Shown here: positions 4,911-60,000 of the stretch, piece after piece
How positions within the stretch are numbered: the first letter of the stretch is position 1
How the letters are laid out: every line of letters begins with the position of its first letter
DNA from: Bolinopsis microptera
Taxonomy: Eukaryota; Ctenophora; Tentaculata; Lobata; Bolinopsidae
DNA: 60,000 nucleotides
Reading direction: 5' to 3'
Assembly: GCF_026151205.1 (NCBI RefSeq)
Contig: NC_087072.1
Coordinates: forward strand, 17,563,669-17,623,668
Translations under genes and position numbers: made by a program
The notes under the pieces: model-generated
What the model was told of the DNA's origin: nothing
The model's input: the letters and a program-made list of their open reading frames with translations, nothing else
Databases searched by the model: none

Positions 4911-6532
4911 CAAGTAAGTTGAGCTTCGATTTGAAATCTTGATCCTGGTCATTCCACAATCCCGCCTATGACTGCAAATGAAATATCATTTAAGACTGGT
5001 TTGCTGCTGAGCTGCATCTGCATGAAAATGGAATGATATGGTGGTTGGTGATCTTACCGCTTTACCGGGTAACCACTCCTGACTCCTTAAAATGATACGG
5101 AAGCTTACAGATTAAACGGATTAAACGGATTATAATAAACGATTCAAGAGTGACCTGCAGTTTATTGCAGAGTCTACTAGACAGCACTCTTTTGTGCACG
5201 AACAATGTCTGATATTATAATGGTTTAAGTGCTACTTTAATGATGCTTTATTCCGAGCCCTAAGCTTGGAGGAGTCTGATTTATCACATTACCATTATCA
5301 TGATTAACTATTATTCCTGGCTATTAGGAACACATTGAATTTGAACGAGCTCTGTACCCTATCTAATATCTATACCGCGATAATTTAATCAAGAAGGTTC
5401 TTTTAAATCTTATAATCTAACTTTGAGGATCATATAAATGGGTCTGAAAGTTCCTTTTTACTGATTGGATTCACCACGGCAATTCCATTCAGTATTAATT
5501 GAATGATCGGCCGCGTCATTCCGTTAATTCTAGAGGTTAGGATTTGTTGACTGGAACATAAATTGCGTTGAATAAGACCGGTTTAATACGAATTGCCTAA
5601 TAAGACCATGGTTTATACCAATTCTCACAATATCCTTAACTATACTGCAACTAGCAGTCACACCTATTTGACACATATTTAAGGATTTTAGTGTCAAAGT
5701 GTCAATAAACTACGTAACAATTCTCATGTGACTCGTTAACTACTTGCTATTGAATGGCTCATGGTTTCAAGTCTGAAGAACTCCCAGTTTTATGAAAATT
5801 GTCACAATTTTATGCTGTGAAAATGATCCACTTTTATAAATTCGAGAAAATTATGCCCGCAGAAGATATTTGGTTCTACAGTATAGTATTTTTGTGTAAC
5901 AAGGGGTGTTGACGCTTAAGAAATAAGTCATAATATATATATAAAGATATATATATAATAATCTTGACTTTAAATTAAGTCATCAACCAAGACAGATTTA
6001 ATGTGGTAAATTTCTTTCCACTAACTTATTTCGCAAAATAGAGCAAATTTTCGCAAACAAAAAGTGAGTTATGTTACTTGTGAAACAGACTAAAGTGCAC
6101 CATTAACTAAAGCTGCACTTAAAAGAATTCATTTAATGGAGATTTTACAAGCTGATGCTGTATATTTCTACCTCAATACTAAAAAGTGACGATAGTAACA
6201 AGAATAATGGTATTTTTTACACATGTTCATTAAGTGGTCTAGAGTTCTAGCTATTTCACACCATGGGAACGGTACAAGAGTGTCGAGAATCTAGCCTGCT
6301 GTTTTTAGGGCCGTTTTAATTCGACCAGCTTTCATTGGAACTGGACAGTTGTATCATTGAAATTAGAATCAGAAAATCTGTACAATATAATATGCCGATT
6401 TCCAGCACGGGCCGCATAATAGTAACAACAGTATCATACTTAATTCAGAGCTTCAGTAGCATACTTACTTCAAGATTGTCTGCTTTTGCTCATAGCTTTA
6501 TAGCGAAAGAACGAGCTTTAGACATTAGAGAA
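4911..6532. other. AT-rich intergenic stretch
   Basis: No supported gene. A short ATTAAACGG tandem (about 5112-5136) is the reverse complement of the 9-bp tail repeat of LINE A at 15567-15600, so it may be the 3' tail of a decayed copy on the minus strand. An AT palindrome lies at about 5935-5965. The frame at 6335-6538 has no recognised product. Confidence 0.45.
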
Positions 6533-30321: not shown

Positions 30322-30972
30322 GTCTGACTGCACGATTCTAAGTTCTAACCATTCACCCCAACAGTGACTATCTCCTCACTCTACAATCTACGAACGTGCA
30401 GATATTTAGTAGCATATACCGGGAAATATACCAATCACAGGATTTCTCTATCGTGAAGGAAGGGTCGGGAAAATTTTGGAAACTTTTACTGGCGGATTTA
30501 AAGAAAATGCGTGGATTTAGATGAATAATAATAAGCACCATCTAAACAAGTTTTTAAGAAATTTGTACCTCTCCAAGCAAACGAAAGGAAATATTGCTAT
30601 TTTGTGCTATTTTTGCCACGTTCCTTCACATCTCATGAAAAAACTTAGCATAGAGATCAAAAACATTAAGTTTCAACATTGTGGCAGTTCACACTTTAAA
30701 AAAAGTAAAGTTGGATTTTGTGTTCTATTCTTTTCGTGGTACAATATACCAAAACAGGGTTAAGTCCAAATGACTTCACAGGAAGTTCAATTACTGTCTA
30801 GCGCAACATTTCCACACCAAAAATTGAGAACACTCATGACTCGATTCTGTATTTTATTTTCAAGTCTCTGGTTTCCTGATCTCCAGAAGGCAGAGCTGCA
30901 AGATCAGCTCCTATAACCATAACTAACCCTGATTTAGTACACTCGATACACAAATTATTATTATCCTATATT
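30322..30972. other. Intergenic stretch
   Basis: No supported gene. The frame at 30521-30763 has no recognised product. Confidence 0.4.
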
Positions 30973-31478
30973 TTACCAAAACCCATAATCATGGGTAGAG
31001 TGGACCGCTGTCAGTGTCTCTCATTCCCAAACAAAAGGAAATGATATTATTTTGATTGACTGTTCTCAAATGCAAAATGATACCGAGAATGAAATCGGTC
31101 GCTCGCTTTTCCCATTCATTCACGGCTTACGAATTGTAATAAGTTTCGATTGATTACATCAATCAGATGCTGTAAAAATCTCTTTGGGTTGCGTTCGGGT
31201 CGATACCTAGTATTTCGGGGTAAGGGTGGTAGTTATTAGTATTACTTATTGAATTAGCTGAAGTTTATTGAATCTTCATTGCCGAGTACAGCTGCCTTTG
31301 GGTAGTTCTTCTTAATCTATTACAATTGTAAATGAATGGGAAAAGCGAGCGACCGATTTCATTCTCGGTATCATTTTGCATTTGAGAACGGTCAATCAAA
31401 ATAATATCATTTCCTTTTGTTTGGGAATGAGAGACACTGACAGCGGTCCACTCTACCCATGATTATGGGTTTTGGTAA
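30973..31478. repeat. Repeat X, diverged copy (X0) with enlarged loop
   Basis: Inverted arms: ACCAAAACCCATAATCATGG to GAGAATGAAATCGGTCGCTC on the left, mirrored to CCATGATTATGGGTTTTGGT on the right. The loop is ~175 bp longer than in the other copies and lies in the opposite orientation relative to Z. Arm divergence from the other X copies shows it is older. Confidence 0.85.
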
Positions 31479-32498
31479 AATATCATCTCTTTTTGATTAT
31501 AATGTCAGGGTACTTTATAAAGTCGAAATATAAACTGATATATTCATTAATAAGGAGGAAGTTTCAACGATTTCGAAATTTTTCCTTTAAAAACATTTCC
31601 TTGTGTTTAGGGAAGCATATCGGTCGATCACTGACTGAATATGCCACTTAATACTCATTCAAGTTGGCATTAAATTCATATATAATGACATTAAACTGTC
31701 GTGGCAAAGCAGAATTTGTTGGAAATCACGAATGAGCAAAATTCTCACCTTTCGCACGTGCAAACTTTGAGCAGACGTTGCGTGCGCATCCAATATTGAA
31801 TCGCCGTAAATTTTTGCATGTAATTGTTTTATATATAGCTTGATAAGCATGCAAAGTTATAAAGTATTTCAAGAAGAACTGTAATCACAACGGCACTCTA
31901 AAGTTGACAGAAAATGACGAAAACAGCAATTTTCAGTGATTTTAGCGATTTTCTATCAATTTGGGCGTGTCCCAACGTGTGCAACTTTTCGATTTTCAAC
32001 ATTAAAACTAGCCTAATGCACAATTTATACCTATAGGAAGCAGAACTGAGCTCCACAACCCAAGGCATGGCCAAACACCAGAGAATACTAAATCGCAAAA
32101 TTGACGTTTTTATAAAATAATTCTTCAAAAAAGCACAAGCTTCAATGACGAATATCTTTATGAAGGAGCAAGCTAGAAAAATTTTCCGGTAGATTTTCAG
32201 AATGCTTGAACAATTATCTAAGGTGAAAATTTCCTTAGATTTTGAATAAAATTACTCCTTAATGGTTTAAAATTAATTTTAAAAGTTATTACTTTGTCAA
32301 AAATCAAGTTTTAAAAACGGATAACTTGATGACGTCATTAAGGGGTGTTTATGACGTCATATAATTTTTTTATACAATGTAAACTTAAGTATAAACAATT
32401 ATTTGCAAGACCTGTGGTCGGAAATGGCTGTATCTTTTATACTTTTGAATCAATGGACAATTAAATACAGGCTACAATTGACTGGCAAAGCGTCTATC
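31479..32498 (+). repeat. Repeat Z, diverged copy (Z0)
   Basis: Starts ATCATCTCTTTTTGATTATA, as after the other X copies, and ends AATTGACTGGCAAAGCGTCT. It is about 1 kb and noncoding, with many substitutions relative to the palindrome copies. Confidence 0.85.
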
Positions 32499-32518
32499 CC
32501 TGAATATATATGTATATA

Positions 32519-33055
32519 TCACGACAATCTATCGTAAAACAGGGGTTCTAGAAAACCCACTTCCCGATGCTCCTGAAACCTGAAACTTTTTTGCAGTCGA
32601 TTTGGTCAACGTCTAGACGCCCTGAAAAATTTCAGATCTCTAACTCAATTTTAACATGGTTTTTAAGGCACCTGAATATGGCGATTTTGGGTTTTTTACC
32701 GAATTTCGTATAACAGTGCTGGCGAGTATTTTATGCAAATTTCTTAAAAATCTCAACATAACTATTTTTTATTCCTGTCAGCTTTGACATCAAATTAGAA
32801 TGTTTTGAACTAAAAATAAATCTGCTGAACGACTTCCGATGAGTCTTAATGCCTGAAAAACACCTACCGGAGGCGGCGGCCTTCGGCCGCCGCCTCCGGC
32901 CGGAGTGCACGCTTCGCGTGCACGAAAGAGGCTTCCGACGAGTACCAAAGGGGTTATAATAGTAAAGGGGGTATAATAGTAAAGGGGGTACAATAGTAAA
33001 GGGGGTACATAGTATACCCCCAATAAAGACACCGCTCGTGCTTGCCAGCACTGTG
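32519..33055 (-). mobile_element. Repeat Y, copy Y0, with minisatellite and GC-rich insert
   Basis: Bounded by TCACGACAATCT (left) and CCAGCACTGTGA (right), i.e. a Y element on the minus strand. It joins Z0 through an AT-rich (TATATG-like) spacer. It contains about four GTAAAGGGGGTATAATA units (32950-33020) and the extra GC-rich double hairpin at 32867-32923. Confidence 0.85.
32867..32923. repeat. Two adjacent GC-rich hairpins, both with TTC loops
   Basis: CCGGAGGCGGCGGCC-TTC-GGCCGCCGCCTCCGG (15-bp perfect arms, 32867-32899) is followed by GTGCACGC-TTC-GCGTGCAC (8-bp perfect arms, 32905-32923). Neither is present in the other Y copies. Very GC-rich in an AT-rich setting. Confidence 0.9.
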
Positions 33056-34107
33056 ATAACTATTATAAGGCCTGATCACGTAGCTGGAGTTCTTGTGACG
33101 AGGCAACATAATACACGTTACGAATCTGATCACGTGACCAAGGTTCTGCGAATCAAGGTTACGTGATAGGATCAGTGGTCACGTTACCTCATTAATTCCT
33201 TGTATGACACAAGTAGCTTAATTGGGCTGTTCTCTTAATATTAATTGGGCATTTGGGCAATTCATATCTCAATGTAGAATTTGATACTCGTGTTAAGAGA
33301 ATGCTTCACGTAATCAGCGCAATAAACAGAACGAAATGCTTTTTGAATATAGAGAACTCATAGTCCCTTGATACCACACTCCTTATATAGTAGTTAGTAC
33401 ATATTATATAGCACATCAACTATTTAACCAACATTTTCCCAGCCTTTCCTTCATCGTTGCAATTATCCGATCCAAATGGTAAGAAGCTGATTGTCGTTTG
33501 ATTCGGGGATGATGTAATGCGACGGAGGAATTTAAATTACGTAGCCTGGCATTCCGTCATATCTTCAATCGGTTATCAGTGTTTATGAACACTAAGCCTG
33601 TGTAGTGGTTCCCTGTGGTATTGGGAAAATTATTAACTATAATTCTCTTTGCCATATATGCGGAAGTTTAATCAAAATTCGGTAACGGCCTAGCTAGCTG
33701 CATCATAATTTATCACAAGCTCACAAGCTCATAAGATCACTCGCCGCGGCGCCGATGATTTTTGATTTTTTAGAGGAGGGTCCGGCCTGAACAAAAAGAT
33801 GTTTTGGTCACGTGACAGGTAAGTAAAACACGAATTCGCTTGTTAACTTTAAGGGCTAAGGTTTGGGTAAGGGTTATAGTTACTATAGGGTTATCATGGT
33901 GAGGGTTAAAGGGCTTCGATGAGATCCTTTCTTTCGGTTACTAAGCAGTAAAACCCAAGTCACGTGACAGTGCAACCGCGTGCACGCACGGTCGCGCGCA
34001 CGGTGCGCAGAAATATATCATGCAATTGCATATTCTATAATGAACCACCTGTCAAGTGTCAACTAATGTAAAAATAATTAAAGTGGAGTATAGGTAAATA
34101 TATAGTA
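33056..34107. other. Unique stretch left of the giant palindrome
   Basis: No supported gene. Several TCACGTGAC/GATCACGTGAC palindromes (about 33076, 33131, 33808, 33959) and a GC-rich CGCGTGCACGCACGGTCGCG tract (about 33978-34010) are present. TGGAGTA at 34084-34090 also occurs inverted just beyond the right palindrome edge. Confidence 0.45.
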
Positions 34108-34108
34108 T

Positions 34109-34434
34109 ATTTGACCAAAACCCATAATCATGGGTAGAGTGTACCGCTGCCAGTGTCTCTCTTTTCCAAACAAAAGGAAATGATATTAATTTGAGGAACA
34201 GTCCGCTAATGCAAATTGATACCGAGAATGAAATCGGTCGCTCGCTTTTTCAAATCAATAAGCTTTATTACAATTCGTGAGCCGTGATCGAATGGAAAAA
34301 GCGAGCGACCGATTTCATTCTCGGTATCAATTTGCATTAGCGGACTGTTCCTCAAATTAATATCATTTCCTTTTGTTTGGAAAAGAGAGACACTGGCAGC
34401 GGTACACTCTACCCATGATTATGGGTTTTGGTCA
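34109..34434. repeat. Repeat X, copy X1 (hairpin)
   Basis: A 326-bp foldback: TTGACCAAAACCCATAATCA at the left, TGATTATGGGTTTTGGTCAA at the right, arms of ~140 bp with few mismatches, and a loop with AATAAGCTTTATTACAATTC. Confidence 0.92.
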
Positions 34435-35446
34435 AATATCATCTCTTTTTGATTATAATGTCAGGATAATTTACACAGCTAGTCGAAACTTCATTAACAA
34501 GGAGGTAATTTCGACGATTTCGAAATTCTGCCTTTGAAAACGTTTCCTTGTGTTTAGTTAGGTATATCTGTCGATAACCGACTGAATATGGCACTTTTTA
34601 CTCATTCAAGTTGGCATTAAATTCATATATAATGCCATTTAAATATCGTGGAAAGCAGAATATATTCGAAATCACGAATGAGCAAAATTCTCACCTTTCG
34701 CACGTGCAAACTTTGAGCGGACGTTACGTGCGCATACAATATTGAATCATCGTAAATTTTTGCGTAGTGGTATTTAACATATAGTTTGATAAGCATGCAA
34801 AGTTTCAGAAGATTTCAAAAAGAACTTGGATCACAACGGGACTCCAAAGTTGATAAAAATCGTGAAAATCAAAATTTTTAGTGATTTTAGCTATTTTAAA
34901 TCAATTTGGGCGTGTCCCCACGTGTGCAACTTTTCGATTTTTAACTTTAAAACTAGCCTATAACACAATTTACACCTTTAAGAAGCAAAATTGAGCTCCA
35001 CAACCCAAGGGATAGCCCAACACCAGAGAATACTAATTCACAACTTTTGTGTTTTTATAAAATTATTCTTCAAAAAAGCACTAACTTCAACAGCAAATAT
35101 CTTTATGAAGGAGTAAGGTAGGAAACTTTTCCGGTAGATTTTTAGAATGCTTGAACAATTATCTAAGATGAAAATGTCCTCAGATTTTGAATAAAATTAC
35201 TCTTTAATGGTGTAAAATCGATTTGAAAAGGTGTTGTTTTGTCAAAAATCAAGTTTAAAAAACACTTAAATTGATGACGTCATCAAGTGATGATGATGAT
35301 GATAAATTATTTTTCAATATAAAGTAAACTAAAGTATAAACGATTATCTTTAAAACCTGTGGTTCGAAATGACTGTATCTTTTATACTTTTGAATCTACG
35401 GACACTTAAATGTAGGCTACAATTGACTGCAAAAAGCGTCTATATA
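34435..35446 (+). repeat. Repeat Z, copy Z1
   Basis: About 1 kb, noncoding, from ATATCATCTCTTTTTGATTA to GACTGCAAAAAGCGTCTATA. It is followed about 450 bp later by its own inverted copy (35896-36899), so Z1-core-Z1' is a ~2.5-kb palindrome. Confidence 0.9.
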
Positions 35447-35448
35447 TA

Positions 35449-35868
35449 TCACAATGCTGGCAAGCATAACCGTTGCCCTTATATTCACAACACTATTTAC
35501 CCCCTATACTATTATATCCCCTTTATTGTTTTCCAGGCATTAAGACTCATCGAAAGTAGTTCAGCAGGTATATTTAAGTTCAAAACATTCTAATTCAATG
35601 TTAAAGATGACAGGAATAAGAAATAGTTATGTGGAGGTTTTTAAGAAATTTGCGCAAAATACGCGCCAGCATGTTATACGAAATTAGGTAAAAAACCCAA
35701 AATCGCCATATTCAGGTGCCTTAAAAACCATGTTAAAATTGAGTTAGAGATCTGAAACTTTGCAGGGCGTCTAGACCTTGTCCAAATCGACTGTTAAAAA
35801 ATTTCATGTTTCAGGAGTATTGGGAAGTGGGTTTTCTGGAACCCCTGTTTTACAACAGATTGTCGTGA
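35449..35868 (+). mobile_element. Repeat Y, copy Y1
   Basis: 420 bp from TCACAATGCTGGCAAGCA to ACAGATTGTCGTGA, inserted at the AT-rich core between Z1 and Z1'. It has two CCCCTATACTATTATATCCC-type minisatellite units and an AT-rich run next to its TGTCGTGA end. Confidence 0.88.
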
Positions 35869-35895
35869 AGTATAGTATATAATATGTATATATGT

Positions 35896-36899
35896 ATAGA
35901 CGCTTTGGCAGTCAATTATAGCCTACATTTAAGTGTCCATAGATTCAAAAGTATAAAAGATACAGTCATTTCGAACCACAGGTTTTAAAGATAATTGTTT
36001 ATACTTTAGTTTACACTATATTGAAAAATAATTTATCGTCATAATCATCACTTGATGACGTCATCAATTTAAGTGTTTTTAAAACTTGATTTTTGACAAA
36101 GTAACAACTTTTCAAATCGATATTACACCATTAAAAAGTAATTTTATTCAAAATCTGAGGACATTTTCATCTTAGATGATTGTTCAAGCATTCTGAAAAT
36201 CTACCGGAAAAGTTTCCTACCTTACTCCTTCATAAAGATATTCGCTATTGAAGTTAGTGCTTTTTTGAAGAATAATTTTATAAAAACACAAAAGTTGTGA
36301 ATTAGTATTCTCTGGTGTTGGACCATCCCTTGGGTTGTGGAGCTCAATTTTGCTTCCTAAAGGTGTAAATTGTGTTATAGGCTAGTTTTAAAGTTAAAAA
36401 TCGAAAAGTTGCACACGTGGGGACACGCCCAAATTGATTTAAAATAGCTTATATCACTGAAAATTGTTATTTTCACGATTTTTATCAACTTTGGAGTCCC
36501 GTTGTGATTCAAGTTCTTTTTGAAATCTTCTGAAACTTTGCATGCTTATTAAACTATATATTAAATACCACTATGCAAAATTTTACGGCGATTCAATATT
36601 GTATGCGCACGCAACGTCCGCTCAAAGTTTGTACGTGCGAAAGGTGAGAATTTTGCTCATTCGTGATATCGAATATATTCTGCTTTCCCACGATATTTAA
36701 ATGGCATTATATATGAATTAAATGCCAACTTGAATGAATAAAAAGTGCCATATTCAGTCTGTTATCGACAGATATACCTACCTAAACACAAGGAAACGTT
36801 TTCAAAGGTAAAATTTCGAAATCGTTGAAATTACCTCCTTATTAATGAAGTTTCGACTTTGTAAATTATCCTGACATTATAATCAAAAAGAGATGATAT
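35896..36899 (-). repeat. Repeat Z, inverted copy Z1'
   Basis: Reverse complement of Z1 with scattered substitutions (clearly more diverged from Z1 than the big palindrome arms are from each other), running into X2 at 36900. Confidence 0.9.
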
Positions 36900-37230
36900 T
36901 TGACCAAAACCCATAATCATGGGTAGAGTGAACCGCTGCCAGTGTCTCTGATCTTTTCCAAACAAAAGGAAATGATATTAATTTGAGGAACCGTCCGCAA
37001 ATGCAAATTGATACCGAGAATGAAATCGGTCGCTCGCTTTTCCCATTCATTCACGGCTTACGAATTGTAATAAAGCTTATTGAATGGGAAAAGCGAGCGA
37101 CCGATTTCATTCTCGGTATCAATTTGCATTTGCGGACGGTTCCTCAAATTAATATCATTTCCTTTTGTTTGGAAAAGATCAGAGACACTGGCAGCGGTTC
37201 ACTCTACCCATGATTATGGGTTTTGGTCAA
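36900..37230. repeat. Repeat X, copy X2 (hairpin)
   Basis: Same foldback as X1, but the loop is reverse-complemented, consistent with being the mirror end of an X-Z-Z'-X unit. A few extra bases (GATCTTTTCC) are present symmetrically in both arms, so the arms have been homogenised. Confidence 0.92.
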
Positions 37231-37250
37231 ATATATATATATATATATCT

Positions 37251-37672
37251 TCACGACAATCTGTTGTAAAACAGGGGTTCCAGAAAACCCACTTCCCGAT
37301 ACTCCTGAAACATGAATTTTTTTTTACTGTCGACTTGGACAAGGTCTAGACGCCCTGCAAAGTTTCAGATCTCTAACTCAATTTTAACATGGTTTTTAAG
37401 GCACCTGAATATGGCGATTTTGGGTTTTTTACCTAATTTCGTATAACATGCTGGCGCGTATTTTGCGCAAATTTCTTAAAAACCTCCATATAACTATTTC
37501 TTATTTCTGTCATCTTTAACATTGAATCAGAATGTTTTGAACTTAAATGTATCTGCTGAATTACTTTCGAAAAAGTCTTAATGCCTGGAAAACAATAAAG
37601 GGGATATAATAGTATAGGGGGTAAATAGTATTGTGAATATAAGGGCGACGGTAATGCTTGCCAGCATTGTGA
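37251..37672 (-). mobile_element. Repeat Y, copy Y2
   Basis: 422 bp from TCACGACAATCTGTTG to CCAGCATTGTGA, joined to X2 through a (TA)n run. Together with Y3 it flanks segment U in inverted orientation. Confidence 0.88.
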
Positions 37673-38026
37673 TAAGTACTCTATTTTCATATTATTAATA
37701 TTTACAGTTACAATTATATCACGCGCTATACTCTTGTGATCCAGGTGCTTGGTAATTCTAAGATTTTAATCGCTGTCCCCTTTGACAAATTGGCTGCCCC
37801 CAATTGAATTGAAAAGTCGTGAAGCCAATTCATTCATAGTAGTCGCAAAGTATCATCATTCAATATATGTATTGATTCACGATGTCAATCCTTCGCAGCT
37901 CGGTGAGGCACAGTGGTGCATCTCGCCGATCTACTGGTTGCGAGAAGCATTATTTGATGCGCGCGCGACCCAGTAGTGCATCGCGCTACAAATATATGTA
38001 TCATCATTAATATGTAACAGCTGTAT

Positions 38027-38116
38027 ACAGTGAAAAATCCTGATTTACCGCAAACCTGATTTGCCGCTGGTCTCTCCTTCCCCCAAACTCCGCGGTAAAT
38101 TAGGATTTTACTGTGT
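38027..38116. mobile_element. Small MITE with ACAGTRAAAATCC termini
   Basis: Inverted termini with GATTTACCGC/GCGGTAAAT inside. A related fragment (AAACCCCGATTTACCGCGGAGTTT) is at 58552-58575. The termini resemble pogo/tigger-type non-autonomous elements. Confidence 0.6.
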
Positions 38117-38935
38117 ATTTACAGCTGGTATGAATTTTATTGAAACTAACGACCAATCAAACTAATTACTGGTTTATAAATATTAACATAGTAAAGTATT
38201 TGAGTCTAGTCACAATACGAACCATGTCACATAAGAGTGATACATTTATACGTCAAACTCCAACATTCTTCCCTCTAGGCTACAGATTGACACTTTCGTA
38301 ATATACCATCACATCGTAATTGAAGGAACATACACAATCGCGAGCATATTTTCTTATAGTTTAACTGTTGGTATCTTCTAGTGAGCAGCCGCATAAGTGA
38401 TCCTAAAGTGCAAATGTGTGTCACAATCTACCAATTTCATTGCATTTTCGTGGCTTTACGGCCGAGTGAGTTGCTGCTTATACTGGACATAGAACGATTA
38501 TAAAGTCGAACTTATCTGATATCGTTATTTTGACATTCTGTTATAAGTGATGACGCGGTCGCGGTTATGAATTCCAGAATTCGTATCAAAGTATGGAAGA
38601 TGGTATCTATAATTGGTGGCCGTACTATTTGTACATCTCAACTCGTTAGATGTTGTAGTAAACAGACTTACAGTTGTCCTGTTCACGCCTATATCAGGAA
38701 ATTGCGGTCTAATTAATCTCAAAAGACCGGGAAACGCTGAAAATTACTCACTTTTACTTTTAGTTTGACGACTTTTTCTACTTATCCGGGGATTGTTACA
38801 TTTTAATAGTGCCCCGTAAAGCACTTGAAATGTTCGCAACTTTTTACATTTATATACGGGGAGAAGAGGCAGTGTATTACTTATTACTGTTGTTACGTTC
38901 GGAGATAGTTGCCAAAATTATATCGTACGACTAGT

Positions 38936-39005
38936 AACAGTTCCCCATTACCCAGTACAGTTCCCCACTACCCAGTACAGTTCTCCACTACCCAGTACAG
39001 TTCTC
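38936..39005. repeat. 20-bp tandem repeat (ACAGTTCCCCACTACCCAGT)
   Basis: About 3.5 copies, mirrored exactly at 41772-41841 in the right arm. Confidence 0.85.
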
Positions 39006-39952
39006 CCATTAGAAAGGGTGTGTTTTGGCCACCTTGTAATAGCTTGTACATACAAAAACTATATGATAGTTAAAAGCGTATGATAAATCAGCATTGGTTT
39101 TGAACTGGAGCGGCTCACTGATTGAGTGATCACTGATCATATCGCCGCACGTGCGTCATACTATCACAAATCTACTTTTTACTGGTCAACAGTGCGGTCC
39201 CGTGTAATATCGCATAATTAAAAATTGGACGTTTTACTTGAGTGATCGAATTTGCAACAGAGCAGATTGAGATTTACTTGTACTCTTCTAGTTCTATAGC
39301 GTTTATTAATCGTATTTTGTGGGATTGCTCGGTTGTGTATATTATGCTCTTTTTGTTGTTTCGTAAAGACCTGTCCGATCTATGTTTCTTTCAAATTATA
39401 CATACCTACTCGAGTTTAGCATTTTAAAAATGATTCTCCATCCTTTCCTACATTTTCAGAATTCATTTTCATTCCCATTTAACCTGACGGGCGAAAAGGT
39501 GGGTCGTTAAAAGTTCAAAAATACGAATAAGAATACACCAATGGCAATATAATTCCACTTTTTTGGCAATCATGTTTCATCGTCACGCAAAGTGCGTGTT
39601 TCTAATTTTGGCGTGATCACGATCAACAACTTAGAGTATCAGTAAATCGTATTTTCTGTAAATTTTATTTTCTGCAGTTCTCTTTCGTCTGTGCAAAAAT
39701 TGTAGTTCTTAGAGTCAAATTAATTGTGTTATTTGATAACTTATTCCTGAATTTTGTTTTTTAGTTGAGAAGGTTTGAAAAGTTAAAACTAAAAAACAAC
39801 GTGCTATATAATGAAATAAGATCTTGATGCAATGTTAGTAATATTTTGGACTCCTAAATAGAGGTCGAGTGTCGACCGAATTAAAAATTCTGATCACATT
39901 CCAAGTCCTACATTGCATTATTGGTATTAAAAGCATCACCACATATACTATA

Positions 39953-40374
39953 TCACAATGCTGGCAAGCATTACCGTCGCCCTTATATTCACAATACTAT
40001 TTACCCCCTATACTATTATATCCCCTTTATTGTTTTCCAGGCATTAAGACTTTTTCGAAAGTAATTCAGCAGATACATTTAAGTTCAAAACATTCTGATT
40101 CAATGTTAAAGATGACAGAAATAAGAAATAGTTATATGGAGGTTTTTAAGAAATTTGCGCAAAATACGCGCCAGCATGTTATACGAAATTAGGTAAAAAA
40201 CCCAAAATCGCCATATTCAGGTGCCTTAAAAACCATGTTAAAATTGAGTTAGAGATCTGAAACTTTGCAGGGCGTCTAGACCTTGTCCAAGTCGACAGTA
40301 AAAAAAATTTCATGTTTCAGGAGTATCGGGAAGTGGGTTTTCTGGAACCCCTGTTTTACAACAGATTGTCGTGA
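39953..40374 (+). mobile_element. Repeat Y, copy Y3, at the palindrome centre
   Basis: Same 422-bp sequence as Y2 in reverse orientation. Its TGTCGTGA end reaches the central AT run. Confidence 0.88.
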
Positions 40375-40402
40375 AGATATATATATAAGTATATATATAT
40401 CT
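40375..40402. repeat. AT-rich centre of the giant palindrome
   Basis: AAGATATATATATAAGTATATATATATCTT region. AG at 40388-40389 is the only unpaired pair. Two Y termini meet here tail to tail. Confidence 0.9.
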
Positions 40403-40824
40403 TCACGACAATCTGTTGTAAAACAGGGGTTCCAGAAAACCCACTTCCCGATACTCCTGAAACATGAAATTTTTTTTACTGTCGACTTGGACAAGGTCTA
40501 GACGCCCTGCAAAGTTTCAGATCTCTAACTCAATTTTAACATGGTTTTTAAGGCACCTGAATATGGCGATTTTGGGTTTTTTACCTAATTTCGTATAACA
40601 TGCTGGCGCGTATTTTGCGCAAATTTCTTAAAAACCTCCATATAACTATTTCTTATTTCTGTCATCTTTAACATTGAATCAGAATGTTTTGAACTTAAAT
40701 GTATCTGCTGAATTACTTTCGAAAAAGTCTTAATGCCTGGAAAACAATAAAGGGGATATAATAGTATAGGGGGTAAATAGTATTGTGAATATAAGGGCGA
40801 CGGTAATGCTTGCCAGCATTGTGA
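40403..40824 (-). mobile_element. Repeat Y, copy Y3' (mirror of Y3)
   Basis: Reverse complement of 39953-40374. Confidence 0.88.
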
Positions 40825-43104
40825 TATAGTATATGTGGTGATGCTTTTAATACCAATAATGCAATGTAGGACTTGGAATGTGATCAGAATTTTTAATTCG
40901 GTCGACACTCGACCTCTATTTAGGAGTCCAAAATATTACTAACATTGCATCAAGATCTTATTTCATTATATAGCACGTTGTTTTTTAGTTTTAACTTTTC
41001 AAACCTTCTCAACTAAAAAACAAAATTCAGGAATAAGTTATCAAATAACACAATTAATTTGACTCTAAGAACTACAATTTTTGCACAGACGAAAGAGAAC
41101 TGCAGAAAATAAAATTTACAGAAAATACGATTTACTGATACTCTAAGTTGTTGATCGTGATCACGCCAAAATTAGAAACACGCACTTTGCGTGACGATGA
41201 AACATGATTGCCAAAAAAGTGGAATTATATTGCCATTGGTGTATTCTTATTCGTATTTTTGAACTTTTAACGACCCACCTTTTCGCCCGTCAGGTTAAAT
41301 GGGAATGAAAATGAATTCTGAAAATGTAGGAAAGGATGGAGAATCATTTTTAAAATGCTAAACTCGAGTAGGTATGTATAATTTGAAAGAAACATAGATC
41401 GGACAGGTCTTTACGAAACAACAAAAAGAGCATAATATACACAACCGAGCAATCCCACAAAATACGATTAATAAACGCTATAGAACTAGAAGAGTACAAG
41501 TAAATCTCAATCTGCTCTGTTGCAAATTCGATCACTCAAGTAAAACGTCCAATTTTTAATTATGCGATATTACACGGGACCGCACTGTTGACCAGTAAAA
41601 AGTAGATTTGTGATAGTATGACGCACGTGCGGCGATATGATCAGTGATCACTCAATCAGTGAGCCGCTCCAGTTCAAAACCAATGCTGATTTATCATACG
41701 CTTTTAACTATCATATAGTTTTTGTATGTACAAGCTATTACAAGGTGGCCAAAACACACCCTTTCTAATGGGAGAACTGTACTGGGTAGTGGAGAACTGT
41801 ACTGGGTAGTGGGGAACTGTACTGGGTAATGGGGAACTGTTACTAGTCGTACGATATAATTTTGGCAACTATCTCCGAACGTAACAACAGTAATAAGTAA
41901 TACACTGCCTCTTCTCCCCGTATATAAATGTAAAAAGTTGCGAACATTTCAAGTGCTTTACGGGGCACTATTAAAATGTAACAATCCCCGGATAAGTAGA
42001 AAAAGTCGTCAAACTAAAAGTAAAAGTGAGTAATTTTCAGCGTTTCCCGGTCTTTTGAGATTAATTAGACCGCAATTTCCTGATATAGGCGTGAACAGGA
42101 CAACTGTAAGTCTGTTTACTACAACATCTAACGAGTTGAGATGTACAAATAGTACGGCCACCAATTATAGATACCATCTTCCATACTTTGATACGAATTC
42201 TGGAATTCATAACCGCGACCGCGTCATCACTTATAACAGAATGTCAAAATAACGATATCAGATAAGTTCGACTTTATAATCGTTCTATGTCCAGTATAAG
42301 CAGCACCTCACTCGGCCGTAAAGCCACGAAAATGCCATGAAATTGGTAGATTGTGACACACATTTGCACTTTAGGATCACTTATGCGGCTGCTCACTAGA
42401 AGATACCAACAGTTAAACTATAAGAAAATATGCTCGCGATTGTGTATGTTCCTTCAATTACGATGTGATGGTATATTACGAAAGTGTCAATCTGTAGCCT
42501 AGAGGGAAGAATGTTGGAGTTTGACGTATAAATGTATCACTCTTATGTGACATGGTTCGTATTGTGACTAGACTCAAATACTTTACTATGTTAATATTTA
42601 TAAACCAGTAATTAGTTTGATTGGTCGTTAGTTTCAATAAAATTCATACCAGCTGTAAATACACAGTAAAATCCTAATTTACCGCGGAGTTTGGGGGAAG
42701 GAGAGACCAGCGGCAAATCAGGTTTGCGGTAAATCAGGATTTTTCACTGTATACAGCTGTTACATATTAATGATGATACATATATTTGTAGCGCGATGCA
42801 CTACTGGGTCGCGCGCGCATCAAATAATGCTTCTCGCAACCAGTAGATCGGCGAGATGCACCACTGTGCCTCACCGAGCTGCGAAGGATTGACATCGTGA
42901 ATCAATACATATATTGAATGATGATACTTTGCGACTACTATGAATGAATTGGCTTCACGACTTTTCAATTCAATTGGGGGCAGCCAATTTGTCAAAGGGG
43001 ACAGCGATTAAAATCTTAGAATTACCAAGCACCTGGATCACAAGAGTATAGCGCGTGATATAATTGTAACTGTAAATATTAATAATATGAAAATAGAGTA
43101 CTTA
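40825..43104. other. Segment U' (mirror of U)
   Basis: Reverse complement of 37673-39952. The two mismatches seen (42306, 42336) fall here. Confidence 0.7.
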
Positions 43105-43526
43105 TCACAATGCTGGCAAGCATTACCGTCGCCCTTATATTCACAATACTATTTACCCCCTATACTATTATATCCCCTTTATTGTTTTCCAGGCATTAAG
43201 ACTTTTTCGAAAGTAATTCAGCAGATACATTTAAGTTCAAAACATTCTGATTCAATGTTAAAGATGACAGAAATAAGAAATAGTTATATGGAGGTTTTTA
43301 AGAAATTTGCGCAAAATACGCGCCAGCATGTTATACGAAATTAGGTAAAAAACCCAAAATCGCCATATTCAGGTGCCTTAAAAACCATGTTAAAATTGAG
43401 TTAGAGATCTGAAACTTTGCAGGGCGTCTAGACCTTGTCCAAGTCGACAGTAAAAAAAAATTCATGTTTCAGGAGTATCGGGAAGTGGGTTTTCTGGAAC
43501 CCCTGTTTTACAACAGATTGTCGTGA
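43105..43526 (+). mobile_element. Repeat Y, copy Y2' (mirror of Y2)
   Basis: Reverse complement of 37251-37672, including the same T9/A9 homopolymer length. Confidence 0.88.
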
Positions 43527-43546
43527 AGATATATATATATATATAT

Positions 43547-43877
43547 TTGACCAAAACCCATAATCATGGGTAGAGTGAACCGCTGCCAGTGTCTCTGATC
43601 TTTTCCAAACAAAAGGAAATGATATTAATTTGAGGAACCGTCCGCAAATGCAAATTGATACCGAGAATGAAATCGGTCGCTCGCTTTTCCCATTCATTCA
43701 CGGCTTACGAATTGTAATAAAGCTTATTGAATGGGAAAAGCGAGCGACCGATTTCATTCTCGGTATCAATTTGCATTTGCGGACGGTTCCTCAAATTAAT
43801 ATCATTTCCTTTTGTTTGGAAAAGATCAGAGACACTGGCAGCGGTTCACTCTACCCATGATTATGGGTTTTGGTCAA
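43547..43877. repeat. Repeat X, copy X2' (mirror of X2)
   Basis: Hairpin identical in reverse to 36900-37230. Confidence 0.9.
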
Positions 43878-44881
43878 ATATCATCTCTTTTTGATTATAA
43901 TGTCAGGATAATTTACAAAGTCGAAACTTCATTAATAAGGAGGTAATTTCAACGATTTCGAAATTTTACCTTTGAAAACGTTTCCTTGTGTTTAGGTAGG
44001 TATATCTGTCGATAACAGACTGAATATGGCACTTTTTATTCATTCAAGTTGGCATTTAATTCATATATAATGCCATTTAAATATCGTGGGAAAGCAGAAT
44101 ATATTCGATATCACGAATGAGCAAAATTCTCACCTTTCGCACGTACAAACTTTGAGCGGACGTTGCGTGCGCATACAATATTGAATCGCCGTAAAATTTT
44201 GCATAGTGGTATTTAATATATAGTTTAATAAGCATGCAAAGTTTCAGAAGATTTCAAAAAGAACTTGAATCACAACGGGACTCCAAAGTTGATAAAAATC
44301 GTGAAAATAACAATTTTCAGTGATATAAGCTATTTTAAATCAATTTGGGCGTGTCCCCACGTGTGCAACTTTTCGATTTTTAACTTTAAAACTAGCCTAT
44401 AACACAATTTACACCTTTAGGAAGCAAAATTGAGCTCCACAACCCAAGGGATGGTCCAACACCAGAGAATACTAATTCACAACTTTTGTGTTTTTATAAA
44501 ATTATTCTTCAAAAAAGCACTAACTTCAATAGCGAATATCTTTATGAAGGAGTAAGGTAGGAAACTTTTCCGGTAGATTTTCAGAATGCTTGAACAATCA
44601 TCTAAGATAAAAATGTCCTCAGATTTTGAATAAAATTACTTTTTAATGGTGTAATATCGATTTGAAAAGTTGTTACTTTGTCAAAAATCAAGTTTTAAAA
44701 ACACTTAAATTGATGACGTCATCAAGTGATGATTATGACGATAAATTATTTTTCAATATAGTGTAAACTAAAGTATAAACAATTATCTTTAAAACCTGTG
44801 GTTCGAAATGACTGTATCTTTTATACTTTTGAATCTATGGACACTTAAATGTAGGCTATAATTGACTGCCAAAGCGTCTAT
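43878..44881 (+). repeat. Repeat Z, mirror of Z1'
   Basis: Reverse complement of 35896-36899. Confidence 0.9.
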
Positions 44882-44908
44882 ACATATATACATATTATAT
44901 ACTATACT

Positions 44909-45328
44909 TCACGACAATCTGTTGTAAAACAGGGGTTCCAGAAAACCCACTTCCCAATACTCCTGAAACATGAAATTTTTTAACAGTCGATTTGGACAAG
45001 GTCTAGACGCCCTGCAAAGTTTCAGATCTCTAACTCAATTTTAACATGGTTTTTAAGGCACCTGAATATGGCGATTTTGGGTTTTTTACCTAATTTCGTA
45101 TAACATGCTGGCGCGTATTTTGCGCAAATTTCTTAAAAACCTCCACATAACTATTTCTTATTCCTGTCATCTTTAACATTGAATTAGAATGTTTTGAACT
45201 TAAATATACCTGCTGAACTACTTTCGATGAGTCTTAATGCCTGGAAAACAATAAAGGGGATATAATAGTATAGGGGGTAAATAGTGTTGTGAATATAAGG
45301 GCAACGGTTATGCTTGCCAGCATTGTGA
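44909..45328 (-). mobile_element. Repeat Y, copy Y1' (mirror of Y1)
   Basis: Reverse complement of 35449-35868. Confidence 0.88.
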
Positions 45329-45330
45329 TA

Positions 45331-46342
45331 TATATAGACGCTTTTTGCAGTCAATTGTAGCCTACATTTAAGTGTCCGTAGATTCAAAAGTATAAAAGAT
45401 ACAGTCATTTCGAACCACAGGTTTTAAAGATAATCGTTTATACTTTAGTTTACTTTATATTGAAAAATAATTTATCATCATCATCATCACTTGATGACGT
45501 CATCAATTTAAGTGTTTTTTAAACTTGATTTTTGACAAAACAACACCTTTTCAAATCGATTTTACACCATTAAAGAGTAATTTTATTCAAAATCTGAGGA
45601 CATTTTCATCTTAGATAATTGTTCAAGCATTCTAAAAATCTACCGGAAAAGTTTCCTACCTTACTCCTTCATAAAGATATTTGCTGTTGAAGTTAGTGCT
45701 TTTTTGAAGAATAATTTTATAAAAACACAAAAGTTGTGAATTAGTATTCTCTGGTGTTGGGCTATCCCTTGGGTTGTGGAGCTCAATTTTGCTTCTTAAA
45801 GGTGTAAATTGTGTTATAGGCTAGTTTTAAAGTTAAAAATCGAAAAGTTGCACACGTGGGGACACGCCCAAATTGATTTAAAATAGCTAAAATCACTAAA
45901 AATTTTGATTTTCACGATTTTTATCAACTTTGGAGTCCCGTTGTGATCCAAGTTCTTTTTGAAATCTTCTGAAACTTTGCATGCTTATCAAACTATATGT
46001 TAAATACCACTACGCAAAAATTTACGATGATTCAATATTGTATGCGCACGTAACGTCCGCTCAAAGTTTGCACGTGCGAAAGGTGAGAATTTTGCTCATT
46101 CGTGATTTCGAATATATTCTGCTTTCCACGATATTTAAATGGCATTATATATGAATTTAATGCCAACTTGAATGAGTAAAAAGTGCCATATTCAGTCGGT
46201 TATCGACAGATATACCTAACTAAACACAAGGAAACGTTTTCAAAGGCAGAATTTCGAAATCGTCGAAATTACCTCCTTGTTAATGAAGTTTCGACTAGCT
46301 GTGTAAATTATCCTGACATTATAATCAAAAAGAGATGATATT
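45331..46342 (-). repeat. Repeat Z, mirror of Z1
   Basis: Reverse complement of 34435-35446. Confidence 0.9.
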
Positions 46343-46668
46343 TGACCAAAACCCATAATCATGGGTAGAGTGTACCGCTGCCAGTGTCTCTCTTTTCCAA
46401 ACAAAAGGAAATGATATTAATTTGAGGAACAGTCCGCTAATGCAAATTGATACCGAGAATGAAATCGGTCGCTCGCTTTTTCCATTCGATCACGGCTCAC
46501 GAATTGTAATAAAGCTTATTGATTTGAAAAAGCGAGCGACCGATTTCATTCTCGGTATCAATTTGCATTAGCGGACTGTTCCTCAAATTAATATCATTTC
46601 CTTTTGTTTGGAAAAGAGAGACACTGGCAGCGGTACACTCTACCCATGATTATGGGTTTTGGTCAAAT
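46343..46668. repeat. Repeat X, copy X1' (mirror of X1)
   Basis: Hairpin identical in reverse to 34109-34434. It ends the palindrome. Confidence 0.9.
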
Positions 46669-46669
46669 A

Positions 46670-47437
46670 CTCCATCAACAATAATGGCTGCTTATTTCTT
46701 TACATACTGAACCGCAAAATGGGGACAAAAGAAGCTTCTAGAATGATGTAATAGTAGTATTATAACTATCGATGATATCATATTATGATGATTAGCGAAT
46801 TCACGTGAATTATCAAGAGTATCACTTTTTCGCAGAATATCATATTTTAAAAGTCTGATATTGAGTACTTCTTAAGAAAAAGGAAAGTTCATTTGGGTAA
46901 AAGCGTCTACTCACTACTATTATATAACTGATCACGCAACATTTTTTGCGCAGGGCTTCAAGTTTAGGGGTTGAATACTTTCCCTGGAATGAACAATACG
47001 CTTATTTGAGTACGATTTCTACGGCCAGCTCAAAATCTTATGATCATTCGAATAAGTGTATAGTAATACTATGAGATCTTTATAACATTTCTACGTAGAC
47101 TGTAAAAATCATTAAAATAGTTTCTCAGGAATGAACAGGACACAAATTTCAGTAAACCTCGCCCAATTAATCATGGCTATATCAACAATTTTGCACTCAC
47201 GGAGAATCTTCAAGGATTTCCCTGCAGCCCAAAATTCAACATAGGTGAATTTTCACACTATCTTTGAAATCAAAATCCAATTTTCCACCCTTGCATATTC
47301 CTATTGGAAAATCTGTAAGTATGAAAAATTACGAAATTATGCCTAAATTTGTTGTGACTTGTTTGTTTGTTTGTTTATAGAACCTGTCACGTCCCAATCT
47401 CGAACTGGAAAATGACGTAACTCAATTCGGAGTGTGA
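46670..47437. other. Unique stretch right of the giant palindrome
   Basis: AT-rich, no supported gene. A GTTT repeat (47362-47377) precedes a TTTATAG acceptor-like site at about 47380. Confidence 0.4.
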
Positions 47438-47888
47438 ATACGGGTGGTACCTGCAAGAGTATTCATTAAGCATTTAGAGCTCTGTTGTGACTTTGATCAG
47501 GTCCAAAAATCAACTTTTCAGTTGGCTGAGCACAATTTTGAGGGCATCAAAAACTGCACAAGAATTTTGAGAAGTACCAAGTATCAAAACAATTTGATGT
47601 TACGATATAATTACAGCTACAAATCACAAGAAATACCTGAGGTATATCCTCTCAATGAAACAAATGATTTTGGTAATTCTTAGAACTCTGGATCTGATCA
47701 CCAGCTTGTCAGTTGTCTGCTAAATGGTTTCAGTCATAGCACTGACACTCAAGAAACATTTCAAATACCTCACTCAAGAAACGTGCAACCAGCCCCTGGA
47801 ACATTCTATATGAATTATGATAGTGAGGAAATCAAAAAAATGCTTATAGTAATTACAGTTGTGCCTCGCGCCAGCCAGCTTGAGCTTT
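47438..47888 (+). pseudogene. Possible decayed exon, one in-frame stop
   Basis: An open frame of about 80 codons (FDQVQKSTFQLAEHNFEGIK and onward) meets TAG at 47681-47683 and then continues open for another ~67 codons to TAA at 47886 (SGSDHQLVSCLLNGFSHSTD to ASQLEL). No ATG opens it. The final ~75 bases recur, more decayed, at 10531-10606. It may be a repeat-borne coding remnant. No family is recognised. Confidence 0.35.
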
Positions 47889-48921
47889 AAATGCTCAGAA
47901 GATGATTTCAGATTAAAATGTGTCCACGTTGCTAAGGCACTGCTTTTCAAGTTGAGTTGATAATAGTTCCAGACAGTCTCATTGGATAGTGATTAGTGAA
48001 AGTGTGAAATTTCATCAAGGTTTATTGGTAGAAACGGTCCATTCTACTTTATTCTACTTTACTTCTCGGACTCTAGCTCTATAAAAGTCTAAACAGCATA
48101 ACTAGAATCAAGTATAATATCCACTATTCTGGATCGTCCAAACCCCGCTTTAATGGGGTGTCCAATTCACTAATTCAAATTGCACTAATATTTTACACAG
48201 GTACATACTATACTCTAAAATAAAACAACTCTGAAACATCACATGATAGTAACTTTTTCGTCACATGATAATGATAGTTACTATTTCGACACATGAAAGT
48301 CACTATTTTGTTTTAAGATCAGTGAACTTCTATGAGTATATAGCTGGATTGAACAAATTAGCTGATGATTATAAAACGTAAATAAATAAAACGTAAATAA
48401 AAAAATTAAATATTCTGTTACAGTGTTTGGTCTCCACTCGGCTCTAGCACACGTTCTAGCACACGTTAATCACGGCTCTGAAACAAGTTGCAACCCCTTT
48501 TCGCGCGCGGCGGCAAAAGGCCGGCTCTCTCTCTCTCTCTCCGGCCGAGGTATACAACGTGTAGCAAGCTCTAGCAGAGGCTCAGTAGAAATTTCAGACA
48601 AACTACAATTAGCTTTGCCTTTATATCAAACTATAATAAACAAATACTGTGCATTATAAAAACTAAACATCCCTTCCAATCAATCCTGTCCTCAGAAACA
48701 TCTTTGAAGGCGTCTAACCTTAACTATAAATTTGATTGTGTTATACAAATTAATTTGATTTCGCCCCAAATCAAAGAGATTTTGAAAGGACCCCCATGGC
48801 CCTGTAAACAAATTTACAGTTGCGGAGCTGCTAGCAGTTTAAAACAATTCCCACAACTAGTCATTTTAGCAAGTTTTCTAGTCTAGTAAGTTATACGGAC
48901 GGACATAATAATAAAGACGGA
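47889..48921. other. Intergenic stretch with a CT-repeat hairpin
   Basis: No supported gene. GGCCGG-(CT)n-CCGGCC at about 48520-48545 forms a short GC hairpin beside TTCGCGCGCGGCGGC. An open frame across it (48423-48659) has no recognised product. ACATGATAGTAAC-type short repeats occur at 48240-48300. Confidence 0.4.
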
Positions 48922-49634
48922 TATAATACGGGGCCACTTCTTGTTTGTAGTTATGAGATTTCTAGGATGCCTGTCATGTGGAGTGTGGATTATATTGGCC
49001 AGTTAGTCATAAATTCAGATTTAGATGAGATTTCTAATTTAGGACTAGGTAAATTACTCTAATTTTCTAATTAGCGATTATAATCGCTTAATGAAAAAAT
49101 TAAGTCAACTGCGGTCAGAAACAAATCTGGCCAGCTGATTGCAGACCCCCAAAAGCAGAAAGAAAGGAACACTTTTCTGAGTTATTAAATCTTCCCCCGC
49201 AAGAAGCTAATATCTCAAACCCAAACAACATCCCTCCCCAACCCAGGTTCAAATACCTCCCTCATTCAAACCTAGACAACATCCCTCCCCAACCCTGGTT
49301 CAAATACCTCTCTCATTCAGACCTAAACAACATCCCTCCCCAACCCTGGTTCAAATACCTCTCTCATTCAGACCTAGACAACATCCCTCCCCAACCTTGG
49401 TTCAAATACCTCTCTCATTCGGACCTAGACAACATCCCTCCCCAACCCAGGTTCAAATACCTCTCTCATTCAGACCTAGACAACATCCCTCCCCAACCCT
49501 GGTTCAAATACCTCTCTCATTCAGACCTAGACAACATCCCTTCCCAACCCTGGTTCAAATACCTCTCTCATTCAGACCTAGACAACATCCCTCCCCAACC
49601 CAGGTTCAAATACCTATAATACGGGGCCACTTCT
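48922..49634. repeat. 20-bp direct repeats flanking a minisatellite-bearing segment
   Basis: TATAATACGGGGCCACTTCT is present at 48922-48941 and again, identical, at 49615-49634. The 673 bp between holds AT-rich sequence and the 51-bp minisatellite. This may be a long target duplication around an insertion, or a local segmental duplication whose interior later changed. Confidence 0.75.
49226..49614. repeat. 51-bp minisatellite, about 7.6 copies
   Basis: The unit begins CAACATCCCTCCCCAACCCT and continues GGTTCAAATACCTCTCTCATT. The length of 51 (17 codons) keeps one frame open with a 17-residue repeat (VQIPLSFRPRQHPSPTL), but no start context or gene surrounds it. Copies differ by only a few substitutions, so expansion is recent. 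Confidence 0.92.
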
Positions 49635-57742: not shown

Positions 57743-58150
57743 GGGGTCGTTCACATATCAGTATTAGTATTACGTAATCAGCCGAGGTAAGGGGGGAGGG
57801 GTATCCAAATGAGGGGGTATCCAAATGAAGGGGGTATCCAAATGAGGGGGGTATCCAAATGAGGGGGCTATCCAAATGAGGGGGTATCAAAATGAGGGGG
57901 TATCCAAATGAGGGGGTATCCAAATGAGGGGGTATCCAAATGAGGGGGTATCCAAATGAGGGGGTATCCAAATGAGGGGTATCCAAATGAGGGGGTATCC
58001 AAATGAGGGGTATCCAAATGAGGGGGGTATCCAAATGATTACGCTAGTGTAATTTTGATACAATAGCTATGTGTAAACAAATTATGGAGGGGGAGGGGGT
58101 TAAATTTACAATTTGTCCAAAAATTGATTACGTAATATGTGAACGACACC
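57743..58150. mobile_element. MITE M, copy 2, with internal minisatellite expansion
   Basis: Termini GGGGTCGTTCACATATCAG to TACGTAATCA and TGATTACGTAATATGTGAAC match copy 1, but the element is 408 bp against 163 bp. The difference is the tandem array 57790-58037. It lies just past the stop of the two-exon gene, probably in its 3' UTR or flank. Confidence 0.85.
57790..58037. repeat. 16-bp minisatellite (GGGGGTATCCAAATGA), about 15 copies
   Basis: The units vary only in G number and rare substitutions. The same segment is present once in MITE M copy 1 (GGGGGTTTCCAAATGATTAC), so the array arose by expansion inside the MITE. The minus-strand frame through it is a by-product. Confidence 0.92.
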
Positions 58151-58250: not shown

Positions 58251-58744
58251 AGTCAAAACTCGTTGAAATTATTTTCCCAAACGACAAACGTATTGTCCAG
58301 GATAATGATATGACTACTTTTTAATTTCGGTCAATTTCAATTTATTTCATTAAATAATATCAACATTTTTACTGCTTTACGACTGATTTTCTTGCTTTCT
58401 GTATTAAAAATCGATTGATTATTTGAGGTAAATGAGATTTATAATGTTATAGGTGTCAGGTGATAAGTCAATAATCATAGAGTAAGTTATAAATGAGATT
58501 TCTAATGTAGAATTTGTAGATTGTAGGTGTCACAATAGTCACATACAATAAAACCCCGATTTACCGCGGAGTTTCAGGGGAAGGACAAGATTATTAAAAT
58601 GGGAAATAATTTTAATGGAAAACGATTTAAAAGGGAAACATTTAAATTGCAGATGTGGTTACGTCTTAGCTGAATCATTTTAATAAGGCAAAATTCCCGG
58701 CTTGGGATAGCAAGCGGTTAGTTCCAGACAATTATATTAGCAAT
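58251..58744. other. AT-rich intergenic stretch
   Basis: No supported gene. A fragment (AAAACCCCGATTTACCGCGG, 58551-58570) is related to the MITE at 38027-38116. Confidence 0.4.
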
Positions 58745-59069
58745 TTGACCAAAACCCATAATCATGGGTAGAGTGAACCGCTGCCAGTGTCTCTCTTTTC
58801 CAAACAAAAGAAAATGATATTAATTTGAGGAACCGTCCGCAAATGCAAATTGATACCGAGAATGAAATCGGTCGCTCGCTTTTCCCATTCAATAAGCTTT
58901 ATTACAATACGTAAGCCGTGAATGAATGGGAAACGCGAGCGACCGATTTCATTCTCGGTATCAATTTGCATTTGCGGACGGTTCCTCAAATTAATATCAT
59001 TTTCTTTTGTTTGGAAAAGAGAGACACTGGCAGCGGTTCACTCTACCCATGATTATGGGTTTTGGTCAA
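58745..59069. repeat. Repeat X, copy X4 (hairpin)
   Basis: TTGACCAAAACCCATAATCA to TGATTATGGGTTTTGGTCAA, 325 bp. The loop has the same orientation relative to the following Z as in X1-Z1. Confidence 0.92.
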
Positions 59070-60000
59070 ATATCATCTCTTTTTGATTATAATGTCAGGA
59101 TAATTTACACAGTCGAAACTTAATAAGGAGGTAATTTCAACGATTTCGAAATTTTACCTTTGAAAACGTTTCCTTGTGTTTAGGTAGGCATATCTGTCAA
59201 TAACAGACTGAATATAGCACTTTTTACTCATCCAAGTTGGCATTAAATTCATATATAATGCCATTTTAATATCGTGGGAAAGCAGAATATATTCGAAATC
59301 ACGAATGAGCACAATTCTCACCTTTCGCACGTGCAAACTTCGAGCGGACGTTGCGTGCGCATAAAATATTGAATCACCATACATTTTTGCATATTGTTAT
59401 TTAATATATAGTTTGATAAGCATGAAAAGTTTCAGAAGATTTCAAAAAGAACTTGGATCACAACGGGACTCCAAAGTTGGTAAAAATCGTGAAAATAACA
59501 ATTTTTAGTGATTTTAGCTATTTTAAATGAATTTGGGCGTGTCCCCACGTGTGCAACTTTTCGATTTTCAACTTTAAAACTAGCCTATAACACAATTTAG
59601 ACCTTTAGGAAGCAAAATTGAGCTCCACAACCCAAGGGATGGCCCAACACCAGAGAATACTAATTCACAACTTTTGTGTTTTTATAAAATTATTCTTCAA
59701 AAAAGCACAAACTTCAATAGCGAATATCTTTATGAAGGAGCAAGGTAGGAAAACTTTCCGGTAGATTTTCAGAATGCTTGAACAATTATCTAAGATAAAA
59801 ATGTCCTCAGATTTTGAATAAATTTACTTCTTAATGCTTTAAAATCAATTTGAAAAGTTGTTATTTTGTCAAAAATCAAGTTTTAAAAACATTTAAATTG
59901 ATGACGTCATCAAGTGATGATGATGACGATAAATTATTTTTCGATATAATGTAAACTAAAGTATAAACAATTATCTTTAAAACCTGTGGTTCGAAATGAC
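59070..60000 (+). repeat. Repeat Z, copy Z4, cut by the window edge
   Basis: Follows X4 exactly as Z1 follows X1 and is still aligned at the last base (AACCTGTGGTTCGAAATGAC). Whether a core and inverted Z follow lies outside the window. Confidence 0.9.

Follow-up and report, generated by a model that had tools for sequence, protein, structure and literature searches.

A 12.6-kb palindrome in Bolinopsis microptera that turns at the microsatellite of an element best read as a non-autonomous Helitron

Results

The stretch analysed here (the window) comprises 60 kb of contig C1 in the 264.65-Mb, 232-contig assembly of the Bolinopsis microptera genome; the assembled sequence is the evidence base throughout. 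The window contains a palindrome of ~12.6 kb (34108-46669, unstranded), which self-comparison and arm alignment resolved into two adjoining arms of 6,281 bp each, 34108-40388 and 40389-46669. Pairing ends abruptly beyond 34108 and 46669. The palindrome is present in the assembly, and a 6.28-kb match of such quality cannot have arisen by chance. The coordinates, the axis (paired positions sum to 80777), and the absence of a net indel given in the original prediction were all exact on recomputation; its count of only two mismatches was too low, for 27 of the 6,281 paired positions differ. Spacerless palindromes of comparable size are seldom preserved.

The 27 differences comprise three lone substitutions (36168/44609, 38441/42336, and 38471/42306), the centre pair 40388/40389, and 23 positions within a single 31-bp block. 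This block (37050-37080, unstranded, paired with 43697-43727) is the loop of a smaller palindrome of ~330 bp within the arm and is exactly inverted in one arm relative to the other; the inner palindrome forms the 3' terminus of the nested element X2 described below. Given the three substitutions and the inverted loop, the arms have, if both exist, changed independently since their formation. The outermost module (A, see below) differs between the arms at 0 of 1,342 positions.

Self-comparison split each arm into three modules: A (1.34 kb), B (0.44 kb), and U (~2.28 kb). A and B are repeated within the arm and at many sites across the assembly, where they commonly adjoin, often as A-(AT)n-B, to form a dispersed element of ~1.8 kb that we call X. 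From left to right the order is the left flank L (33060-34109, plus strand); a reversed X (X1, 34110-37672, minus strand, 3' end at 34110) that carries a second X (X2, 35449-37231, plus strand) nested in its (AT)n; U (37673-39952, plus strand); the 5' half of a further X, module B, up to its (AT)n (39953-40388, plus strand); the axis; the mirror image of these modules; and the right flank R (46668-48100, plus strand). In the mirror image are the other B half (40389-40824, minus strand; delimited by self-comparison and from fetched loci), assigned to an apparently broken X designated X3', then U' (40825-43104, minus strand), from which U differs by two substitutions, and X1' (43105-46667, plus strand). 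X1' has 5'-TC at 43105 and a 3' hairpin and GGTCAAA end at 46667, and is interrupted by X2' (43546-45328, minus strand), an X nested in its (AT)n. The B module of X1 is 99.5% like that at the centre, so the X copies flanking U were closely related and could have recombined.

The centre of the palindrome (40377-40400, unstranded) is the self-complementary (AT)n microsatellite of X: 11 AT-alternating bases, AG, and 11 AT-alternating bases, with the axis at 40388/40389. The palindrome thus turns within the microsatellite of an X that lacks its A half on both sides. Both outer edges of the palindrome lie 2 bp outside X termini, at ends that we read below as Helitron 3' ends. The original prediction had not recognised the transposon nature of either the ends or the centre.

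In a genome search with U, the best 40 of 2,283 first-look candidates were scored, an approach that can miss diverged relatives; whole U was found, among the matches listed, only in the two arms, and one diverged relative of its first ~95 bp was missed. Stretches within query bases 187-353 of U belong to a dispersed repeat. None of 10 open reading frames (ORFs) in the palindrome, six of them wholly within U, had a Pfam match at E≤1. We considered and rejected two other element structures. U between its B copies is not a DNA transposon with 442-bp terminal inverted repeats (TIRs), as B accompanies A elsewhere and the ORFs lack Pfam matches at that threshold, and module A is not a TIR transposon, as the minus-strand matches of its first ~331 bases are palindromic self-matching.

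The structure of X was derived from 44 loci fetched for their A/B arrangement, nine of which are the palindrome locus itself. Genome-wide, the normal A-(AT)n-B junction pattern had 324 exact matches (161 forward and 163 reverse; reversed control, 0), two of which are the X2 junctions of the palindrome. Element ends were printed for 13 of the 44 loci. The B end is GTGA followed by T in all 13; the A end is intact in nine, in each of which an A precedes TTT(G/T)ACC. The nested X at locus L051 reveals an empty site, GAAATGATA|TTAATTTGAGG, which corresponds to insertion between A and T with no target duplication. In the opposite reading direction X starts with TCACAATGC after A, so that 5'-TC is present, and its 3' end is ACCCAT-GATT-ATGGGT-TTTGGTCAAA, with a hairpin of 6-bp stem and 4-nt loop (folded with RNA parameters) 10 nt before the end.

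Because the 5'-TC, the 3' hairpin, and A|T insertion without target duplication match Helitron features given in the part of PMC4778049 drawn on here, X is best read as a non-autonomous Helitron. Non-autonomous Helitrons as described there have 5'-TC, a hairpin ~10 nt before the 3' end, and A/T insertion without target duplication, together with a Rep/PIF1 relative in the genome. X departs from that description in its 3' end, which is GGTCAAA (GGCTAAA in the relative on contig C4 discussed next) instead of CTRR, and in carrying an (AT)n internally and, at its 3' end, a 331-bp palindrome whose loop occurs in both orientations. Among HINE/Helentron elements, the oyster Cg_HINE resembles X in its internal microsatellite and its palindrome near the 3' end; HINEs have features of their own, namely subterminal inverted repeats and, often, satellite-like central repeats (PMC7492417, in the part consulted).

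A profile search with Helitron_like_N gave 41 matches in the B. microptera genome and none in 14 control genomes, and the genome contains Helitron reading frames of >3,000 aa without stops. On contig C4, a frame with Helitron_like_N and PIF1 domains spans 1,529 aa inside the piece read, and the end downstream of it is ACCCAATTTATTGGGT-TTTGGCTAAA. An X junction lies ~10.4 kb upstream of the Helitron_like_N match there, with B positions 179-442 at 92% identity and A positions 309-1342 at 89%. We infer that this junction and the frame, in pieces read 7.4 kb apart, belong to one element; a Rep/PIF1 relative is likely to be present in the genome. At the same contig (locus L059, C4:4806000-4815999, local positions 6104-7482), the 3' region of a putative autonomous Helitron terminates in 212-bp perfect inverted repeats. 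At C2:4687865-4715399, Helitron matches and X junctions recur at a spacing of ~16.65 kb, a possible tandem duplication.

The flipped loop that distinguishes the arms lies in the ~330-bp 3' palindrome of the element, and both orientations occur among dispersed copies. In 81 A-module matches (overlapping loci, window included), the loop motif had one orientation in 22 and the opposite orientation in 18, and was absent from 41. This pattern suggests recurrent hairpin-mediated inversion of the loop. For the substitution at 36168/44609, a search for polarity found its context in none of the other X loci, the 13 loci covering the palindrome itself being excluded.

A paralogue bears on which arm is original. 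When R was used as query (46670-48100), bases 1-244 matched C5:19059201-19059452 at 75% identity, the match starting at query base 1. The fetched locus, L062, runs on, at 82% over 95 columns, into the beginning of U, the ~95-bp end of U' that faces X1' in the window, and not into X or L; past ~95 bp, L062 held no more U match. When the window flanks of X1' were joined and aligned to L062, a single 359-column alignment with 270 identities resulted, in which X1' was absent, with a 6-base gap at the insertion site. The contiguity of R and U in L062 indicates that the end of U adjoined R before X1' inserted. Read as an empty site for X1', L062 makes the right arm, and X1' with it, probably the original, and the left arm, with its inverted U and B half, probably the copy; it also contradicts an en-bloc arrival of the palindrome between L and R.

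The palindrome has small counterparts elsewhere. The B-(AT)n-B pattern occurs at three loci genome-wide (the palindrome, L046, and L047), compared with the 324 normal junctions. At that (AT)n, L046 and L047 each carry a perfect palindrome, of 62 and 72 bp respectively, and in L047 a short inverted copy lies between A and the (AT)n-B of an X, reproducing the topology of the large palindrome in miniature. Two other loci with inverted arms were examined and rejected as equivalents. The identical 1,524-bp arms of L051 (C3:2977863-2981157) are due to an X inserted into an X and not to a second fold-back; at this locus (C3:2974500-2984499, local positions 3364-6658) the two elements are in opposite orientation and the arms are 100% identical, microsatellite included. 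L050 (C1:8643400-8653399) groups X modules of both orientations instead of forming a single palindrome; this A/B-module cluster contains a 1,785-bp inverted pair that is 99.7% identical.

Elsewhere in the window, further X sequence occurs at 30968-32862 and 58743-60000, one copy being diverged (~85%) and one truncated by the window end. An ORF of 556 aa (12814-14484) matches reverse transcriptase (RVT_1) and, below threshold, DUF6451, and one of 617 aa (48-1901) has no Pfam match at E≤0.001. Tandem arrays are present at 49225-49615 (51-bp unit, 7.7 copies) and 57798-58038 (16-bp unit, 14.9 copies).

Discussion

The module structure, the (AT)n centre, the edges at putative Helitron 3' ends, and the continuity of the X1'-side end of U with R in the paralogue can all be read directly from the assembled DNA. 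We propose that they reflect a germline inverted duplication formed by fold-back synthesis at the (AT)n of a non-autonomous Helitron, a reading to which we give a probability of about 0.6. The ancestral order would have been L, X3' (3'-A-(AT)n-B-5'), U', X1' (5'-B..A-3', with X2' nested in it), and R. A chromosome break or fork stall inside the (AT)n of X3' is presumed to have released a right-hand end whose self-complementary AT run folded onto itself and served as a primer, so that new synthesis copied B, U', and X1' over 6.28 kb as far as the 3' end of X1'. The new end, consisting of X sequence, would then have been sealed to the left remnant of the broken X3', probably via A-module homology, which would have brought L next to the copied 3' end of the Helitron. 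The reconstructed parts of this scheme are the break, the priming by fold-back, and the former adjacency of L and X3'.

Inverted duplication by fold-back is well established as a mechanism (Hermetz et al. 2014, PMC3907307; PMC9199198), and healing of fold-back ends near repeats has been reported in yeast (PMC10164571); each of these sources is cited for the portion used here. The rearrangement is most likely of this known kind, with a Helitron footprint that is unusually clean and a direction that can be read. As in the published cases (PMC3907307; PMC9199198), there is a short inverted sequence at the turn, and the proposed cause is a broken end that pairs with itself and primes synthesis. 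The human cases, as far as those portions go, are large, with terminal deletions, translocations, or rings and a normal-copy spacer, whereas the present palindrome has arms of 6.3 kb, is interstitial, has a 2-bp centre, and was apparently rejoined at a transposon end. Among the matches listed in the open-licence literature, no title or abstract opening described a fold-back palindrome at a Helitron (AT)n.

Palindromic AT-rich repeats (PATRRs) are AT-rich, self-complementary break sites known for translocations. The palindrome shares with them a proposed break site of this kind and differs in being an interstitial inverted copy.

Several observations weigh against the proposed fold-back. Published fold-back duplications retain a spacer (PMC3907307, same portion), and the possible fold-back loop here, 2 bp (AG) or 4 nt (ACTT) on the other strand, is shorter than the spacers given there. 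Random rejoining within the A module of an X3' differing by ~0.5% predicts a few differences, and the outer A modules show none; this would fit a join close to the outer end, an X3' whose A was already identical, or subsequent conversion. The L062 alignment is 75% identical and covers only ~95 bp of U, and of its 35 gap positions six fall exactly at the junction, so that the insertion site of X1' is approximate. The search with L (best 40 of 846 candidates) matched only its own locus and a dispersed repeat (query bases 5-291), and no paralogue among the matches listed is informative about L or bears on the adjacency of L and U. Finally, the short inverted copy in L046 enters another X-type module and not the same X.

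Near-identical arms with no spacer are the customary look of an assembly or library artefact, in which a fold-back read (from a missed adapter or a chimera formed in amplification) or an incorrect join across X repeats would have made a false second arm, and the high copy number of X, with its 324 exact junctions, would favour such mis-joining. A fold-back read, however, would run into the reverse complement of R, whereas the left arm stops at an X terminus and is followed by different DNA. The three substitutions and the loop inversion also separate the arms, and the turn occurs at the X microsatellite and not at a random place. We consider an artefact unlikely. Of the origins offered in the original prediction, a recent inverted amplification is thus favoured by the (AT)n centre, the edges at Helitron 3' ends, the paralogue, and the small number of arm differences; assembly foldback is less likely, and gene conversion between the arms could have contributed to their likeness.

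Somewhat less probable still is a two-step origin, in which a spaced inverted duplication of X-U-X came first and the spacer was later deleted between the (AT)n runs of facing X copies. Large palindromes tend towards spacer loss, and (AT)n is both a direct and an inverted repeat, so deletion between runs would be easy; this route nevertheless requires two events and, alone, leaves the position of both outer edges at X termini unexplained. In a further alternative, a Helitron transposase would have driven the process, copying a strand from X3' through U to X1', stopping at the 3' terminator of X1', and joining the strand back inverted. The copied strand does terminate at a Helitron 3' end with a hairpin and is joined to T, stop-free Helitron frames of >3,000 aa exist in the genome, and read-through capture is known for Helitrons (PMC4778049, within the part used). 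Against this, the products described in that part start at 5'-TC, whereas the palindrome copy starts inside (AT)n, and no inverted join at the donor site is described there; we regard this route as doubtful. A foldback-type transposon (FB/Galileo type) spanning all 12.56 kb, with 6.28-kb TIRs and inserted as a unit, is suggested by the same transposon terminus at both ends, but both are Helitron 3' ends, no second whole U was among the matches listed, and the paralogue has the end of U contiguous with R with X1' absent. We take the lack of a further whole U among those matches and the L062 paralogue to rule out such a transposon for practical purposes.

A bolder extension of the fold-back proposal is that the family itself carries a switch, its (AT)n and 3' terminator causing strand copying to reverse at the microsatellite and to end at the 3' terminus of the next Helitron. 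We think this improbable. If it were true, a Helitron family would, as a side effect of rolling-circle transposition, repeatedly build inverted copies, ~30 bp to 6 kb long, of adjacent DNA. For the single event proposed here, the turning point, the rejoining point, and the probable original arm would all be visible, which makes a fold-back event legible in a single genome. The palindrome also points to the microsatellite of an abundant Helitron as a possible break-and-copy site, a possibility for which >300 exact junctions in the B. microptera genome are available for testing.

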